A stretch of DNA of 59,807 nt from Spirochaetaceae bacterium (GTDB lineage Bacteria; Spirochaetota; Spirochaetia; SZUA-6; Bin103). Location: NCBI GenBank assembly GCA_028821475.1, contig JAPPGB010000110.1, positions 1 to 59,807 on the forward strand. The letters run 5' to 3'. Below, in pieces: positions 10,265-27,983 of this stretch. Position numbers and translations under genes: made by a program. Below the pieces are notes generated by a model. The model was not told where the DNA came from, did no database searches, and saw nothing but the letters and a program-made list of their open reading frames with translations. How positions within the stretch are numbered: position 1 is the first letter of the stretch; every line of letters begins with the position of its first letter.

Positions 10265-10349
10265 GATCGCAGGTGGGATGGGCCAAAGGCGTCGCTGGCA
10301 GGCGGCGGCTTTGGGGCGTAGACCGAAGACAGGACGTTGACGCGCTCCG

Positions 10350-10387
10350 GGGCTCCCCGGGTTTCGCACGGAACCCATCGGGAGCCC
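10350..10387 (+). other. second intercistronic stem-loop
   Basis: GGGCTCCC pairs with GGGAGCCC, with an inner GGGTT/AACCC stem, 19 bases before the permease ATG. Together with the hairpin at 10236 it sits between the binding-protein and permease genes, where differential expression is common. Confidence 0.45.
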
Positions 10388-10405
10388 TGGTGCCGTTGAG
10401 AGGCG

Positions 10406-11389
10406 ATGGGCCGCTATTTCATAAGGCGAGTTCTGTACGCGGTCCCGGCACTGCTGGTGATCTCGTTCATCTCGTTCCTGCTGATCCAGTTGCCGCCGGG
10501 CACGTTCGCCGACACGGTGGCGGCGGAGATGATGGAGTCGGCCAGTGTCAACGAGTCGGCGATCCGCGCCATCGAGGAGCGCTACGGACTCAATCAGCCG
10601 ATCATGGTGCAGTACTGGAAGTGGATCTCCGGGATCCTGCTGCGCGGCGACTTCGGCGAGTCGTTCATCTGGAACCGGCCGGTGGCGCCGCTGATGTGGG
10701 AGCGCCTCGGCCTGACCCTGATCCTGACCTCCAGCGCGTTCATCTTCGTGTGCGTGGTGTCGGTGCCGATCGGCATCTTCTCCGCGGTGCGGCAGTACTC
10801 GGTCGGCGATTACGTCGCCACCTCGCTCGGATTCCTCGGTCTGGCGGTGCCCAGCTTCCTGTTCGCCCTGATCCTGATGTACGTCGGCTTCCGCTACTTC
10901 GATACCAGCATCGGCGGTTTCTTCTCGCCGGAGTTCGCGCGCGCGGAATGGAGCTGGGCGCGCGTGGCCGACCTGCTGTCCAACCTGTGGATGCCGATGC
11001 TGGCGGTCGGGCTGGCCGGCACCGCTTCGCTGATACGCATCGTGCGCGCCAACCTGCTCGACGAGTTGCTCAAGCCGTACGTGGCGGCGGCGCGCGCCAA
11101 GGGGCTGTCCGAGTTGGGCTTGCTGCTCAAGTACCCGGTGCGGCTGGCGCTGATCCCGTTCGTGGCCACGGTTGGCTGGATGCTGCCGCAGCTCGTGTCG
11201 GGGGCCACCATCGTGTCGGTGGTGATGAGCCTGCCGACCACCGGGCCGATGCTGCTGCGCTCGCTGCTCGGGCAGGACATGTACCTGGCGGCGAGCTTCA
11301 TCATGATGCTCAGCGGACTGACGGTAATCGGTACCGTGATCTCCGATGTGCTGCTGGCCCTGGTCGACCCGCGCATCCGGTTCACCTGA
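10406..11389 (+). CDS. ABC transporter permease, DppB/OppB type
   Basis: The 327-residue integral membrane protein begins GRYFIRRVLYAVPALLVISF, the typical first helix of BPD_transp_1 permeases of the DppB class. A periplasmic region with RYGLNQPIMVQYWKWI and GDFGESF follows, then the core helices and the EAA-type loop AAARAKGLSELGLL that docks the ATPase. The end LLALVDPRIRFT is typical. It should form a heterodimer with the next gene product, which overlaps it by ATGA. GAGAGG precedes the ATG. The gap of 168 bases from the binding-protein gene holds two hairpins. Confidence 0.92.
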   Translation: MGRYFIRRVLYAVPALLVISFISFLLIQLPPGTFADTVAAEMMESASVNESAIRAIEERYGLNQPIMVQYWKWISGILLRGDFGESFIWNRPVAPLMWERLGLTLILTSSAFIFVCVVSVPIGIFSAVRQYSVGDYVATSLGFLGLAVPSFLFALILMYVGFRYFDTSIGGFFSPEFARAEWSWARVADLLSNLWMPMLAVGLAGTASLIRIVRANLLDELLKPYVAAARAKGLSELGLLLKYPVRLALIPFVATVGWMLPQLVSGATIVSVVMSLPTTGPMLLRSLLGQDMYLAASFIMMLSGLTVIGTVISDVLLALVDPRIRFT

Positions 11390-12534
11390 TGGCCGCCCCC
11401 GCCGCCGCGGTTCCCGCCGCCGCCGAGACCGCCACCGACGCTGCCGCAACCCTGCAGCTCGCCAGCCAATGGCGGCTGATCTGGTGGCGGTTCCGCAAGC
11501 ACAAGCTCGCGCTGGTCAGCGGCGTCGTGGTGATCCTGGTCTACCTGGTGGCGGCGTTCGTGGAGTTCCTGGCGCCGTTCTCGACCGACCGGATGATCTC
11601 CAAGCTCGCCTACGCACCACCGCAACGGCTTCGATTCGTGGAGCAGACCGACACCGGGCCGCGGTTCGGGCTGTACGTGTACGGGTACGCCACCGAAATC
11701 GACATGCTGTCACTGGAGCGCACGTTCAGTGTCGACGACAGTCAGCGCATCGACGTACACCTGCTCGCGAAGGGCCAGCCCTACAAGCTGTGGGGGCTGA
11801 TCCCGCTGCAGCGCCACCTGGTCGGCCCGGCCGACCAGGACGCGCCGTTCTTCCTGTTCGGCGCCGACCGGCTCGGGCGCGACCTGTTCAGCCGCATCAT
11901 CTACGGCACCCGCATCTCGATGACCATCGGTCTGGTCGGCGTCACGCTGAGCCTGGTGCTCGGCGTGCTGCTCGGCGGTGTGTCCGGCTATTTCGGCGGC
12001 ACCGCGGACCTGCTGATCCAGCGGCTCATGGAGATCCTGCGCTCCATGCCCACCATTCCGCTGTGGATGGGGCTGGCGGCGGCGATCCCGGACTTCTGGT
12101 CGCCGGTGCTGGTCTACTTCATGATCACCATCATCCTGTCGGTGATCGGCTGGACCTGGCTGGCGCAGGCGGTGCGCGGCAAGTTCTTCTCGCTCAAGAC
12201 CGAGGACTTCGTGGTGGCCGCCAAGCTGGACGGTTGCAGCGAGCTGCAGGTGATCGTCAGCCACATGGTGCCCTCGTTCGTGAGCCACATCATCGCCACC
12301 CTCACGCTGGCGATTCCGCAGATGATCATCGCCGAGACCGCGCTCAGCTTCCTGGGCATCGGCCTGCGTCCGCCGGTGGTGAGCTGGGGGGTGCTGCTCC
12401 GGGAGGCGCAGAACGTGCGCGTGCTGGTCACCTCGCCATGGCTGTTCCTGCCCGGCGCGGCGGTGATCGTGGCGGTGCTGGCGTTCAACTTCCTGGGTGA
12501 CGGCATTCGGGACGCCGCGGACCCCTACAAGTGA
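11389..12534 (+). CDS. ABC transporter permease, DppC/OppC type
   Basis: The 381-residue permease has an Ala-rich cytoplasmic lead, then WRLIWWRFRKHKLALVSGVVV, the OppC N-terminal helix. A long periplasmic insert (~residues 60-155) precedes FFLFGADRLGRDLFSRIIYGTRIS, the standard BPD_transp_1 entry. The EAA loop VVAAKLDGCSELQVI and the ending FLGIGLRPPVVSWG ... [16 protein letters not shown] are intact. This ending is nearly the same as the dead fragment at 19525-19716. The start was set by the ATGA overlap with the preceding permease; a longer frame from 10273 is not supported. Confidence 0.92.
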   Translation: MAAPAAAVPAAAETATDAAATLQLASQWRLIWWRFRKHKLALVSGVVVILVYLVAAFVEFLAPFSTDRMISKLAYAPPQRLRFVEQTDTGPRFGLYVYGYATEIDMLSLERTFSVDDSQRIDVHLLAKGQPYKLWGLIPLQRHLVGPADQDAPFFLFGADRLGRDLFSRIIYGTRISMTIGLVGVTLSLVLGVLLGGVSGYFGGTADLLIQRLMEILRSMPTIPLWMGLAAAIPDFWSPVLVYFMITIILSVIGWTWLAQAVRGKFFSLKTEDFVVAAKLDGCSELQVIVSHMVPSFVSHIIATLTLAIPQMIIAETALSFLGIGLRPPVVSWGVLLREAQNVRVLVTSPWLFLPGAAVIVAVLAFNFLGDGIRDAADPYK

Positions 12535-19524: not shown

Positions 19525-19716
19525 GCGGTCCTGGGGCTGGGCATCCGCCCGCCGTCGGTGAGTTGGGGTGCGCTGCTGAAGGATGCCCAGAGCGTGCGCA
19601 CCGTGGTGCAGAACCCGTAGCTGCTGATCCCGGGGCTGTCCGTGGTGACGGAGGTGCTGGCGTTCAACTTCCTCGGCGACGGCCTGCGCGGCGCTGCCGA
19701 CCCGTACAGACAGTAG
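19525..19716 (+). pseudogene. dead C-terminal tail of an OppC-type permease
   Basis: The frame reads LGLGIRPPSVSWGALL, then a stop, then LLIPGLSVV and VLAFNFLGDGLRGAADPY, then the final stop at 19714. It matches position by position the end of the intact permease at 11389-12534 (SFLGIGLRPPVVSWG ... [16 protein letters not shown]). The internal stop is TAG at 19618-19620 where the homologue has Trp (TGG), so a single base change explains it. Nothing of the other ~300 residues is present, so it is a truncated relic on the same strand as the enolase-superfamily and epimerase genes. Confidence 0.85.
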
Positions 19717-19783
19717 TCTGTCCGAGTACAGACAGTAGTCTGCCCGTGTACAGACAGTAGTCTGTCCGAGTATAAGCAGTAAC
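19704..19783. repeat. 22-bp tandem repeat with hairpins, 3.6 copies
   Basis: Copies begin at 19704, 19726 and 19748, and a partial copy at 19770. The conserved core is GTACAGACAGTAGTCTG. Each full copy contains ACAGAC-AGTA-GTCTGT, a 6-bp stem with a 4-base loop (5 bp in copy 2). The array begins within the last codons of the permease relic and ends just before the convergent gene at 19792. It may be a replication-slippage product or act as a bidirectional barrier. Confidence 0.85.
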
Positions 19784-19791
19784 CTCGCGCG

Positions 19792-20823
19792 TCAGATGCG
19801 GGGGTTGGCCCTTTTGATCATCGACATGACCTGGGGATCGGCGTTGATGGGAATGAGCGCGATGTCGGGGTGGGCGCGCGCGAATACCCGGAACACCTGG
19901 TCGGCGAAGCCCTGACCCACCTGGTCGACGTTCTTGAAGTTGAGCACAACGGTGTTGAACCGATCGAGGCGCGCCAAGACACGTCTCGCTTGTGAACGCG
20001 AAATCAACGCATCGTTTCCGTATCTCGCCAGATCCACCGGCACGACCGTCTTCGTGAATGCGTAGTCGTCGTCTCCCGTGAATGCGTCGAACACTTCTTT
20101 CGGGGTTCTCCCGGCGCCACTCGACAATTTCATGCGTACCCGAGTGCCGGCCACGAACTCGTCGTTGTCGAACACCCAGTACTCTTCTGTCGGACTGAGG
20201 TAAGACAAGTACACGCCGCCGGAGTCGATGGAGAATTCATCGAACATTCGAGAGGTGAAGAATATGCCTTCCCCGGTATGGTTGTCGGGATCGGTCGTCA
20301 GCTTGCCCTTGGTCAATTCGAATACCGCGTGGCGCTCGTCCTCAAGGTCCAGGGTCTCCTCGATCTTTTTGAAGATCCCGTATCCGTCATCCGTAATCGT
20401 CATCTCGGTAGAGGTGGTCGTGCGCTCTATGTCAACGGCGACGGTCATGCCTGATGAGTGATCGATCGCGTTGTTCAACATCTCCTGGAAGCTGTAAGCC
20501 CAGATGTCCATCGCGTTGCCGGCAAGGTCGGGAAGGAGAGGTACGATCTGTTGCCGCCACACCTGGTTCTCGTCGAGTTGCTTGCCAAGCTTCAGTGCAA
20601 TCGTCCGGCGATCGATGGTCGACAGCGAGTAGCGTCGATTTCGAGTAGTTCCCTGCACTGCTACGTGTCCATCGTCTACGAGACGGCGTAGGTGCTTGTT
20701 GACCGCCTGGCGGGAGATGCCGAATTCTCGCGCCGTCTCGCGGACGACCTCCTGAGAATCGGAGTCTATCCGCTTGGCGATGAAGCGCCGGATCAGCCTG
20801 CCTCGTTGCCGGGTACCTGCCAT
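19792..20823 (-). CDS. HTH / GHKL-ATPase / STAS-like regulator (DUF4325 type)
   Basis: The 343-residue protein has three parts. Residues 1-70 form a winged helix with EFGISRQAVNKHLRRLVDDG. Residues ~100-235 form a GHKL ATPase, with N-box FQEMLNNAIDHS, G1 DDGYGIF and G2 HTGEGIFFTSRMFDEF. Residues ~240-343 form the STAS-like DUF4325 module (PVDLARYGNDALISRSQ ... IPINADPQVMSMIK). This layout joins parts that anti-sigma/anti-anti-sigma systems use as separate proteins. The target is unknown. ATG 20823 is preferred over the longer frame to 21291, which is antisense to the PhyH gene. It diverges from the PhyH gene. Confidence 0.78.
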   Translation of the reverse strand: MAGTRQRGRLIRRFIAKRIDSDSQEVVRETAREFGISRQAVNKHLRRLVDDGHVAVQGTTRNRRYSLSTIDRRTIALKLGKQLDENQVWRQQIVPLLPDLAGNAMDIWAYSFQEMLNNAIDHSSGMTVAVDIERTTTSTEMTITDDGYGIFKKIEETLDLEDERHAVFELTKGKLTTDPDNHTGEGIFFTSRMFDEFSIDSGGVYLSYLSPTEEYWVFDNDEFVAGTRVRMKLSSGAGRTPKEVFDAFTGDDDYAFTKTVVPVDLARYGNDALISRSQARRVLARLDRFNTVVLNFKNVDQVGQGFADQVFRVFARAHPDIALIPINADPQVMSMIKRANPRI

Positions 20824-20833
20824 GGCAGCCCGA

Positions 20834-20862
20834 ATGGTAACGACGGAGGGGCATATTGTCAA
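20834..20862 (-). promoter_or_regulatory. predicted promoter of the HTH/ATPase/STAS gene, nearly leaderless
   Basis: On the minus strand TTGACA (20862-20857), a 17-base spacer and TACCAT (20839-20834) precede the ATG at 20823 by only 10 bases from the -10 box. Transcription would then start at or within a few bases of the start codon, and no ribosome site is visible. GGTAA/TTACC arms around the spacer are a possible operator. Confidence 0.55.
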
Positions 20863-20935
20863 CCTTACCACGGGCTCCCCGCGGAGTGCCGGGCTCTGGC
20901 GAAGTGGCGGCGTGGCTACTACACTCGGAGTCATG

Positions 20936-25755: not shown

Positions 25756-26673
25756 TCAGTACCGCGTGTCGACGAAGGTTGCCGCTCTCCCCGGACAGGG
25801 ATAGCCAGACCCATCCTTGTGGGGATTCAACCGGGAAGTCCGTTTCTTTCTCCTGAAGCGCTTGCCGCAGTAAGCGCACTCATAGATGTGATACGGCCCA
25901 TGTCGTGACCCTGACACGCGCATTGGGCGGCGTCGGACCCTTGGCAATGTCGATCGTCCTGCGGTGGGTGGGATAGCGATCGCCCCCTGCGGTTTAAGTT
26001 CGACCACGTAGCGCGGGATGAAGCTCTGGCCTGTTGTTTGCGCACCTTCGATGCGGTCTATGCGGTAGCTGCGGTGCTCGCCATCCGACTTTCTGATTGC
26101 GTGTAGGACGATATTCCCCTCACGCGTGCGACGTAGAGAATACGGTTCAATCCGCCGGACAGATCCTTGGTACCGCAGATCCACGCAAAGATGGTTGGCT
26201 GCGGCAAATCGGATGATCTCCAGGAATGACCGGGCAGCGGCAGCGATCGGCAGTCGCACTGTACGTTCTCTGATTACAGTCTCGCCGTTGGCAATCCGGT
26301 AGATCCCGGGCACGACGCGCGCCACGCCGGTTCGCAGCCAGGAAAAGAAGTCGGCAAGCTCGTTCCAGAACGAATCGACGGGTGGCAGAGCGCGAAGCTG
26401 GTGGCCAAGCATCGTCCGCCAAGATCCCTCCAGATTGTCCCTGGACTTCTCCAGTTCAGCGAGCGTCGGAACGGGGATGCCACGATGACTGCACTTCTGC
26501 TGTAGGACATCATGCAGCACGGCGGCCTGCGGACGCGCTTCGGTATTTCGATAGAGATTGATCACATCGTATAGATCGCGGGGACGCGCGCGGTCACCCA
26601 ACGCTCGGACCTTTTCTCCGAATGCCCTCCTCATAGGCGTAGCATCGGACTCTGATACCCTCTTGCGGAGCAT
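25756..26673 (-). CDS. C-terminal part of frameshifted AbiEii toxin with WYL-like and Cys-rich tail
   Basis: From AFGEKVRALGDRARPRDLYDVINLYRN onward this frame continues the AbiEii nucleotidyltransferase encoded at 26594-27163; the two are separated by one extra G in the GGG at 26625-26627. After the nucleotidyltransferase part (to residue ~125) comes a WYL-like module: FAAANHLCVDLRYQG, VRRIEPYSLRRTREGNIVLHA and HRSYRIDRIEGA. The last ~45 residues contain CAYCGKRFRRKKRTSRLN and a later Cys, a zinc-finger-like group. Whether it is translated alone (ATG 26634, overlapping the shift) or as one chain by frameshifting is unknown. The first 13 residues of this frame are probably not real. Confidence 0.65.
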   Translation of the reverse strand: MLRKRVSESDATPMRRAFGEKVRALGDRARPRDLYDVINLYRNTEARPQAAVLHDVLQQKCSHRGIPVPTLAELEKSRDNLEGSWRTMLGHQLRALPPVDSFWNELADFFSWLRTGVARVVPGIYRIANGETVIRERTVRLPIAAAARSFLEIIRFAAANHLCVDLRYQGSVRRIEPYSLRRTREGNIVLHAIRKSDGEHRSYRIDRIEGAQTTGQSFIPRYVVELKPQGAIAIPPTAGRSTLPRVRRRPMRVSGSRHGPYHIYECAYCGKRFRRKKRTSRLNPHKDGSGYPCPGRAATFVDTRY

Positions 26674-27163
26674 CGCTGTAGTCGTGAAATATGACGCGCT
26701 GCGACGGCCTTAGAACGAGAATCTCGTCGGGCGTAAGGTCCAGTTTGATACGCGGAAGGCCCCCTGATCGTGGCGCGATCGGCCCCCGATAACTGAGCTT
26801 CCCTTGGCAGGACACCGTGCCACACGGGTTTTCGAAGAGTTCGAAGTCCTGCAACTCTGCCGGGATCTCAATGCCAGTCCCCTCGTAAATCCATTCCGCG
26901 ATTTCGCGGAAGACCGAGCCAAGAAATTCCTGTTCAATGTGAGAAGCATCGGTGATCGTAAAGTCAAGATCTTCGGAGAATCGGTAGGTTTCGAAGTAGC
27001 ATTTCTTAAGACACGTGCCGCCCTTGAAGATCCACGTTTCGGCAAGTGCGACGTGTTGATAGATACCAGCGAGAACCCAGCCAAGCACGTAGTCCTTTTC
27101 GACGATCTGAGGGCGCAACCCAAGGGTGCCCGCGATGTCCAGAATCTCCCGCCGGTTAATCAC
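26594..27163 (-). CDS. AbiEii-type nucleotidyltransferase toxin, N-terminal part (frameshifted)
   Basis: The 189-residue product carries the AbiEii/MNT toxin core: IVEKDYVLGWVLAGI, the nucleotidyltransferase motif FKGGTCLKKCYFETYRFSEDLDFT (G-G-T with the S-E-D-L-D catalytic acids) and IKLDLTPDEILVLRPSQR. It ends early in another frame after CYAYEE, because of a single-base insertion at 26625-26627; correcting it restores EKVRALG ... RPRDLYDV. GTG 27163 overlaps the antitoxin stop by four bases (GTGA). AbiEii toxins transfer nucleotides to tRNA, and the pair acts as a type IV-like toxin-antitoxin and phage-defence system. The sequence looks less GC-rich than its surroundings. Confidence 0.8.
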   Translation of the reverse strand: MINRREILDIAGTLGLRPQIVEKDYVLGWVLAGIYQHVALAETWIFKGGTCLKKCYFETYRFSEDLDFTITDASHIEQEFLGSVFREIAEWIYEGTGIEIPAELQDFELFENPCGTVSCQGKLSYRGPIAPRSGGLPRIKLDLTPDEILVLRPSQRVIFHDYSDAPQEGIRVRCYAYEEGIRRKGPSVG

Positions 27164-27966
27164 GAGGACGCGACGGTTGCCCTATCGTCAGGGACAAGGA
27201 GGCGCCACCGGGAGATGAGGCGACAACAGGGAAGAGATCCGTCAAGCTTGGCGTTGCCTTGGGTGAGACGCTCCCGACATGCTTCTACGATGGTGTGAGT
27301 GTTAGGGAGCCGCTGTGCCAGGAATCCAAGGCGCTTAAATACCGCACCATTGCCGAGCCGTTCCGCATAGCCAATCAGCGTATGATCAGCTCTGTCCTTA
27401 CGTTCGAAATAGGTCGCAACGCAGTCGGCGACATGCTGGATACCGGCTCCGACATGTGGATCGTCGAGCATATCAATAATGGTGCGGTGAACGTCCGATA
27501 CGGCGATCTGCGTCCTTCCACGCCAGACGTTCTTGATGCCGAATATCCTGGATTCGTGGACGTGTTTCAGCGTGAAGTGTGCTCCGTGGTATTGCTGGCT
27601 CTTCGCTCGAACGGTCCGCCCGGTCATTACAACAGTGTCGCGAAAGATCTGCTCCGTCAGGCTCCAGTGTTCGGCAGCGGCCCGTCCGCCAACGTAGGCG
27701 GGTCCAAAAAGGACAGGCACCAGCACCCAGGGATCATCGAGAACCAACTCGCTTGCCAACGAGTCGAGCTCGACTGGTGCGTAGACCCCTGGACCAACGC
27801 GTCGTAGCCAACCCTGACTGCTCCACCGGGACAATAGCTTCGCAGCGGCGGTGCGGCTGACGCCCAGGGCCTGTTCAGCATTGCCGATCTGGATGATGTC
27901 GCCTGCCGACCGAACAACGGCGGCTAGCCGGCGCCGGCCCTTTGGTACGGCGGACAGCTGGTTCAT
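27160..27966 (-). CDS. AbiEi-type antitoxin / autorepressor
   Basis: The 268-residue protein begins with a winged-helix domain: IIQIGNAEQALGVSRTAAAKLLSRW and GWLRRVGPGVYAPV. A typical AbiEi antitoxin domain follows (VLVPVLFGPAYVGGRAAAEHW, VSDVHRTIIDMLDDP, CVATYFERKDRADH). AbiEi represses its own operon and neutralises AbiEii. Gene order (antitoxin first, overlapping toxin) matches AbiE systems. ATG 27966 has AGGAA upstream; TTG 27975 is possible. A palindrome at 27984-28002 is the likely operator. Confidence 0.85.
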   Translation of the reverse strand: MNQLSAVPKGRRRLAAVVRSAGDIIQIGNAEQALGVSRTAAAKLLSRWSSQGWLRRVGPGVYAPVELDSLASELVLDDPWVLVPVLFGPAYVGGRAAAEHWSLTEQIFRDTVVMTGRTVRAKSQQYHGAHFTLKHVHESRIFGIKNVWRGRTQIAVSDVHRTIIDMLDDPHVGAGIQHVADCVATYFERKDRADHTLIGYAERLGNGAVFKRLGFLAQRLPNTHTIVEACRERLTQGNAKLDGSLPCCRLISRWRLLVPDDRATVASS

Positions 27967-27983
27967 ATATACCAATTCCTATA

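Follow-up and report, generated by a model that had tools for sequence, protein, structure and literature searches.

By domain content, the closest known system to the regulator analysed here is CapK/CapS, the Controller of associated/adjacent pathways (PMC13373217, EMBO J 2026). There, CapK carries its domains in the order HTH-STAS-GHKL and CapS in the order STAS-wHTH, the two genes are always adjacent and mostly lie beside immune operons, CapS is phosphorylated on Ser54, the operator sites are palindromic TTAA sequences, and the activation of CapK by single-stranded DNA involves W68 (PMC13373217). One further domain of interest bears the Pfam name DUF4325 (PF14213), which carries no function; the name DUF4325 is used in PMC5982333 and PMC7924643, and the term "STAS-like domain" in PMC7367683 and PMC9341999. 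No description of a family joining winged helix, GHKL and STAS-like domains in a single chain was found in the open PMC literature.

Within the window, i.e. the whole stretch of 59,807 nucleotides under analysis, one gene encodes such a single-chain protein. Like CapK/CapS, it brings HTH, STAS and GHKL domains together in a putative transcriptional switch, with a GHKL part resembling SpoIIAB, and its sequence predicts a winged-helix repressor acting on repeated sites over its own promoter, hence autoregulation. It differs from that system in several respects: the order is wHTH-GHKL-STAS in one chain instead of HTH-STAS-GHKL; no partner gene is present, whereas capS directly follows capK; the canonical phosphorylation site lacks Ser in 83 of 87 homologues, whereas Ser54 of CapS is conserved; no immune-operon location appeared when PADLOC was run on the nearest open reading frame (ORF) on each side; and direct repeats 21-22 bp apart take the place of palindromic TTAA sites. 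Since it differs from CapK/CapS in domain order and in partner gene and lacks the phospho-serine, we consider the regulator, by analogy, a single-chain relative in working style and not a member of that system. The explanation that we favour, and hold to be reasonably probable, is a stand-alone, horizontally spread and self-regulating switch protein, whose winged helix would repress its own gene through a direct-repeat operator.

Domain architecture and conserved residues

The coding sequence (19792-20823, minus strand; 343 aa) starts at a conserved ATG (20821-20823), and the homologues begin at the same codon. Three Pfam families matched above cut-off, HTH_24 (residues 28-52), HATPase_c_2 (111-202) and DUF4325 (278-332), the C-terminal domain being a clear member of PF14213 (E 5e-12; 45.8 bits against a gathering score of 23). 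A full-length AlphaFold2 model, based on an alignment of 87 homologues, reached a pLDDT of 90.0 and a pTM of 0.85. Its N-terminal winged helix (residues 1-70; 20614-20823, minus strand; HTH_24/MarR_2) comprises helices 2-20, 26-34 and 38-50, the last corresponding to the recognition helix (~38-50), and wing strands 54-57 and 64-67. The following GHKL ATPase/kinase-like domain (residues 71-240; 20104-20613, minus strand) belongs to the SpoIIAB/RsbW type by its fold and by its N, G1 and G2 boxes, having an N-box at E114..N118, the G1 motif DxGxG at 145-149 and the lid GxG at 184-186; the best structural match of this middle part was SpoIIAB (1til_E, Z 15.9, rmsd 2.1 over 133 residues). The STAS-like domain (residues 258-343; 19795-20052, minus strand), predicted by itself with a pLDDT of 81.2, matched RsbV (6m36_D, Z 8.4), RsbS (6jhk_B, Z 8.3) and SpoIIAA (1h4y_A, Z 7.8) with rmsd of 2.4-2.7 over 81-82 residues. 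As nearly all remaining top matches were also STAS domains, "STAS-like" is here a statement on the fold, beyond a mere name. A sequence search of solved structures with the whole family returned weak GHKL and HTH matches and none for the STAS-like part, and a viral fold library searched with the model contained no full-length match.

The protein thus shares its ATPase and STAS-like folds with the pairs SpoIIAB/SpoIIAA and RsbW/RsbV, from which it differs by holding both partners in one chain, by a DNA-binding domain that replaces the sigma factor as output, and by the absence of the canonical phospho-serine. The initial annotation had read these three domains in a single chain, which Pfam, the AlphaFold2 model and the fold matches bear out, and had noted that they are usually split between proteins, as is the case in the characterised systems CapK/CapS and SpoIIAB/SpoIIAA. 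Its partner-switching interpretation fared less well in the classical form: the canonical STAS phospho-serine position, taken as 305 from helix 53-66 of the STAS-like domain model, holds Ser in just 4 of the 87 homologues (Ala in 69, Gly in 13, Pro in one), and the adjoining position 304, assigned in the same way, is Gln in 82, Arg in 3 and Pro in 2, never Ser.

Eight GHKL residues (E114, N117, N118, D145, G147, G149, G184 and G186) are invariant in 87/87 homologues, so that ATP binding is predicted to be retained, as, probably, is turnover. Invariant positions of the STAS-like domain are R276, S277, A279 and R281, then G303, F306, D308, F311 and R312. S277 belongs to an SRSQA(K/R)R motif where the first STAS-like helix begins, and S275 is kept in 86/87; phospho-acceptor and interface residue are both candidate roles for S277. 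Residue 89, a possible counterpart of CapK W68, is a conserved aromatic (Trp in 57, Tyr in 22 and Phe in 2 of 87).

Distribution, descent and genomic context of the family

Searching one collection of genome contigs produced 234 relatives of the single-chain regulator. The best 80 of them, retained for analysis (40-58% identity, nearly all aligned end to end), span Binatota, Cyanobacteriota, Planctomycetota, Pseudomonadota, desulfobacteria, Nitrospinota, Chloroflexota and others. The domain fusion is a wide family and not a peculiarity of the window's genome. Its occurrence is sporadic at closer range: a near-full match was present in 9 of 61 genomes of relatives, the own genome counted, or in 11 of the 61 if two short weak matches are included, while the gene was detected in 2/194 cyanobacterial and 7/398 Pseudomonadota genomes, figures that each include the centre genome, a known carrier. 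One cyanobacterial homologue (L110) carries a single internal TAA, suggesting that the gene may sometimes be lost.

In the tree, the window's protein forms one group with three Binatota proteins and the congener's homologue (support 99/99), apart from the seven other homologues of its own order. Horizontal acquisition is the simplest reading of this grouping with Binatota, and the window's gene was probably acquired in that way. The regulator loci are mostly chromosomal or prophage contigs, and relatives occur on 19 viral contigs; tblastn at 1e-5 gave no match to the regulator in 72,556 plasmid records, nor in phage records.

The surroundings of the gene vary widely. Of 143 listed immediate neighbours, 116 were kept after near-duplicates or short ones (27) had been removed by hand, and no recurrent neighbour was found among them, the commonest Pfam family accounting for 3 of the 116 proteins from 71 loci. 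When ORFs within 6 kb were clustered, no family occurred in more than 11 loci and the largest clusters lay at scattered distances and strands. PADLOC, applied to the nearest ORF on each side, assigned every model to at most 1/116 neighbours, with no recurring defence family. An identity of the regulator itself as a defence gene was also set aside, PADLOC having returned just weak HTH matches to CARF/Csa3 models.

These data bear on an alternative in which the protein is the kinase of an unlinked partner switch, its GHKL domain phosphorylating or holding a target encoded elsewhere (a STAS protein, a repressor or a sigma factor), its winged helix serving for autoregulation alone. Such a role would suit the invariant GHKL motifs, N-box Glu included, the proximity of the fold to SpoIIAB/RsbW and an own STAS-like domain devoid of canonical phospho-serine (Ser in 4/87); in CapK/CapS, moreover, the CapK kinase acts on a separate STAS protein (PMC13373217). 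It fits poorly, however, with the lack of a recurrent adjoining partner gene, with a spread across phyla as a lone gene, which is rather that of a protein without dedicated partner, and with the presence of a single DUF4325 gene, the regulator's own, in the window's genome, where no second such protein was found. We judge this alternative unlikely, and retain a regulator acting chiefly on its own gene as the better account.

Direct repeats ahead of the gene

Alignment of the homologue upstreams at the start codon revealed TTGACAAT-like direct repeats ahead of most of them. A chain test in which no motif was named (an 8-mer, at most one mismatch, steps of 19-24) detected at least three copies in 51/86 homologue upstreams, against 2/619 control upstreams (those of further long ORFs at these loci) and 16/1720 Markov shuffles. 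With one protein per 70%-identity cluster, at least three copies remained in 27/51, with steps of 22 (44 times), 21 (15) and 24 (1). Direct pairs of TTKACAA (TT(G/T)ACAA) spaced by 20-24 bp were present in 61/86 upstreams (33/51 clusters) and in 0/619 controls. For the family, sites repeated over the gene's promoter therefore exceed chance, a result to be read with the fact that the motif was first noticed in the very upstreams later used for counting. Sets outside motif discovery gave a weaker signal. Among 18 further loci (17 from viral contigs and the cyanobacterial L110, two more viral loci having too little upstream), 14 showed at least two copies and one at least three, compared with 156/619 controls with at least two; the alignments of 3 of the 18 begin deep within the protein, so their upstreams are possibly misplaced. 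Six further Pseudomonadota loci included one with at least three copies and four with two.

The period is more widely kept than the core. One subfamily variant has the core TTTACAAT, another (L053/L056) the core TTGTCGAT together with K38/A42 in place of R38/N42, and the Nitrospinota loci L080/L084/L089 the core ACTAGTTRTAA (read by eye). Recognition-helix residue 42 follows these cores, Asn occurring with TTGACAAT in 36/48 and His with TTTACAAT in 19/27, a covariation that is not independent evidence, since whole subfamilies differ and descent confounds it. In most upstreams, the hexamer 17-18 bp past an iteron is the TACAAT/GACAAT of the next one, and a perfect TATAAT is present in 5/80 homologues. 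As read from the alignments, the repeats of most closer relatives are shown to sit just before the start codon and to overlap promoter hexamers. Iteron-type plasmid replication initiators also combine a winged helix with ~20-bp direct repeats at their own promoter; the regulator differs from them in having no Rep domain (Pfam) and no match in plasmid records.

At genome scale, the paired repeats produced 33 matches in 27 gene-holding genomes, of which 28 lie upstream of the gene, one downstream (G010) and four elsewhere, positions relative to the gene having been compared by hand. A pair precedes the gene in 22/27 of these genomes, and the reversed-pattern control gave one match; the pattern is absent at the gene in the other 5/27, including the window's own genome (G000) and its congener (G002). 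The four matches away from the gene are located as follows: in G000, at an ABC permease promoter (L093); in G005, close to one alcohol-dehydrogenase-like and one other ORF (L096); between clpS- and clpA-like ORFs (L094); and ahead of a small exported protein (L095), the genes having been named by eye. A wider regulon was rejected on this basis, as the four share no theme and at least L093 and L095 resemble ordinary sigma-70 promoters. In L093 (5831-5861), the TTGACAAT pair of the window's own genome stands before the ABC permease gene and is followed by TATAGT 17 bp on; it may be a plain promoter or else a second target.

The resemblance to promoters raises the question of whether the repeats are simply stacked sigma-70 elements (TTGACA/TTTACA with TACAAT), bound by RNA polymerase alone, in which case the window would have a plain and nearly leaderless promoter. 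A period of 21-22 bp does set -35 and -10 hexamers 17-18 bp apart, some homologues (5/80) have the perfect TATAAT, and pairs away from the gene look like ordinary promoters. Yet the conserved element extends beyond a -35 box, by AAGG in front and AAT behind, two subfamilies hold the period with cores that are not -35 boxes (TTGTCGAT; ACTAGTTRTAA), such pairs occur in 0/619 other upstreams of the same loci, and 3-5 copies are more than an ordinary promoter needs. We regard polymerase as the sole binder as distinctly improbable, and an operator read by the regulator's own winged helix as the preferred interpretation of the repeats.

Upstream region of the window

In the window, one good copy of this conserved candidate iteron/operator survives, the octamer TTGACAAT at 20855-20862 (minus strand; assigned from the family repeat and its score), extended as TAAGGTTGACAAT at 20855-20867 and including the -35 TTGACA. 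Located 39 nt ahead of the start codon, it scores 18.9 against a unit median of 18.7, and the congener's octamer at the same place scores 25.4. No second strong site was found upstream of the gene in the window or in the congener. A possible degenerate second copy, TTACCATT (20833-20840, minus strand), lies 22 bp downstream, where its position fits the period; its score falls between the 95% and 99% background levels, and it includes the -10 TACCAT (20834-20839), for which the congener has CACCAT. The chain test for at least three copies finds no array in the window, just a spurious pair, and TAAGGTTGACAAT with at most one mismatch has a single match in G000, at its own gene, a number that the reversed control equals (one match). 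Taken by itself, the promoter match is not what exceeds chance here; that is the TTGACAAT octamer, seen as one unit of a conserved repeated element.

This modifies the strong TTGACA-17-TACCAT promoter proposed by the initial annotation. Hexamers and spacing are indeed present (TTGACA at 20857-20862, 17 bp, then TACCAT at 20834-20839, 4/6 to TATAAT, ending 10 nt before the ATG); what does not stand is TTGACA as mainly a strong -35 box, given that it is the family-wide core of a candidate operator repeated every 21-22 bp. The promoter reading is incomplete, not wrong, candidate operator and promoter overlapping; the initial annotation had picked out a genuine conserved element by its smallest part. 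If this is the promoter, the distance of 10 nt to the ATG implies a leader of ~3-4 nt, and a nearly leaderless message is plausible in the window, where no Shine-Dalgarno-like match was found before the ATG. Such a match precedes the start in 34/86 homologues, so leaderlessness is not a family trait.

A probable self-regulating switch

As the repeats overlie the promoter, autorepression by the regulator's own winged helix would be the likeliest mechanism, and the regulator probably controls mainly its own production. The winged helix would bind the direct repeats; at their spacing of two helical turns, several protomers would stand on one face of the DNA and, joined through GHKL/STAS contacts, would shut off RNA polymerase. 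A signal, perhaps single-stranded DNA by analogy with CapK, may trigger ATP binding or turnover in the GHKL domain, alter the GHKL-STAS contact and loosen the oligomer, resulting in a burst of the regulator protein itself. One chain would in this way combine the tasks shared out between the kinase CapK and the STAS repressor CapS. In the window, transcription would begin a few bases ahead of the ATG, and repression may be weaker there, since one good operator copy is left. Against self-repression, it must be said that an autorepressor without other target has no explained purpose.

A bolder reading, which we advance tentatively and consider rather doubtful, is that a whole partner switch is contained in one gene, with sensor, ATP-driven switch, STAS partner and repressor, that its own promoter is the sole DNA target and its own sudden abundance the output (DNA damage might, for instance, release it as a lone stress or anti-phage protein), and that it passes between phyla as a gene-plus-operator unit. 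If this were true, GHKL/STAS partner switching would no longer be confined to exchanges among two or three proteins; a single self-regulating chain would perform it too, and its recognisable DNA site, as a 60-bp array, would be a handle for finding the releasing ligand. It would also be a first lead on the function of DUF4325. A protein whose one apparent DNA target is itself, and which has yet passed between phyla, is worth following.

Repeats on both sides of the gene

A clade of the window's order has iteron clusters on both sides of the gene, at L103 5317-6438, L104 3367-4469, L105 8837-9949 and L005 1177-2281, with steps of 23-24 and 11; the TGA stop codon falls within an iteron core in L103 and L104. 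That the same cluster recurs there in direct orientation at a constant offset of 1071-1079 bp, with a 45-bp exact repeat in L103, could mean that the repeats are mobility sites and that gene and array form a one-gene mobile unit, to which a lone, sporadic and cross-phylum distribution and the common block of Polynucleobacter strains, little more than the gene and its upstream, would conform. We consider this very improbable: the protein has no recombinase domain, repeats on both sides are found in one clade only, the sole possible empty-site comparison gave no clean junction, and in Polynucleobacter the gene seems, by eye, to move as integrase islands at a tRNA end do. In that comparison, the left flank of L103 matches G017, with homology stopping ~180 bp short of the array and a different right side; an empty-site search with the L104 flanks found nothing useful. 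In the Polynucleobacter locus L059 (8837-11145), the gene is located between repeats resembling tRNA 3' ends and behind the N-terminal remnant of an apparent integrase (both by eye). An operator under autorepression remains our preferred reading of the repeats.

Neighbouring genes

A PhyH-family protein (PF05721; 20933-21892, plus strand) is encoded divergently from the regulator, with which it shares the intergenic region, and two SBP_bac_5 proteins (Pfam) come after it; on the 3' side of the regulator gene, the next ORF is an epimerase on the opposite strand. The PhyH and binding-protein genes had been suggested as targets, with conserved co-occurrence as the check. A PhyH orthologue (E ≤ 1e-30) was found in 2/26 genomes, the own and one congener (G002), and seven further genomes of the order have the regulator but no such PhyH. 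The three genes adjoin the regulator in G002 alone, within a syntenic block (~13.9 to 25.6 kb; PhyH identity 76%), an arrangement not conserved outside the genus, and the proposed targets are not upheld. Although an operator copy lies within the shared intergenic region and the arrangement is kept in G002, control of these genes is extremely improbable, because that adjacency is not independent where the whole block is syntenic, the seven other genomes of the order lack this PhyH, and no neighbour family exceeds 3/116 proteins from 71 loci.

Several other features were observed near the gene. Just 3' of it, three copies of the hairpin ACAGACAGTAGTCTGT (ACAGAC-AGTA-GTCTGT), spaced by 22 bp, occupy 19706-19765 (no strand assigned), and their CAGACAGTAGTCTG is found nowhere else in the 5.7-Mb genome. 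Next to them, 19531-19716 holds what is left of a DppC-like permease, a decayed C-terminal end containing an in-frame stop; by eye, it resembles the permease at 10273-12534. A 621-aa ORF occupies the corresponding gap in the congener. About 5 kb away, an AbiE type IV toxin-antitoxin locus (25756-27975) encodes an AbiEi antitoxin and an AbiEii split across two ORFs, the second of which carries a WYL domain.
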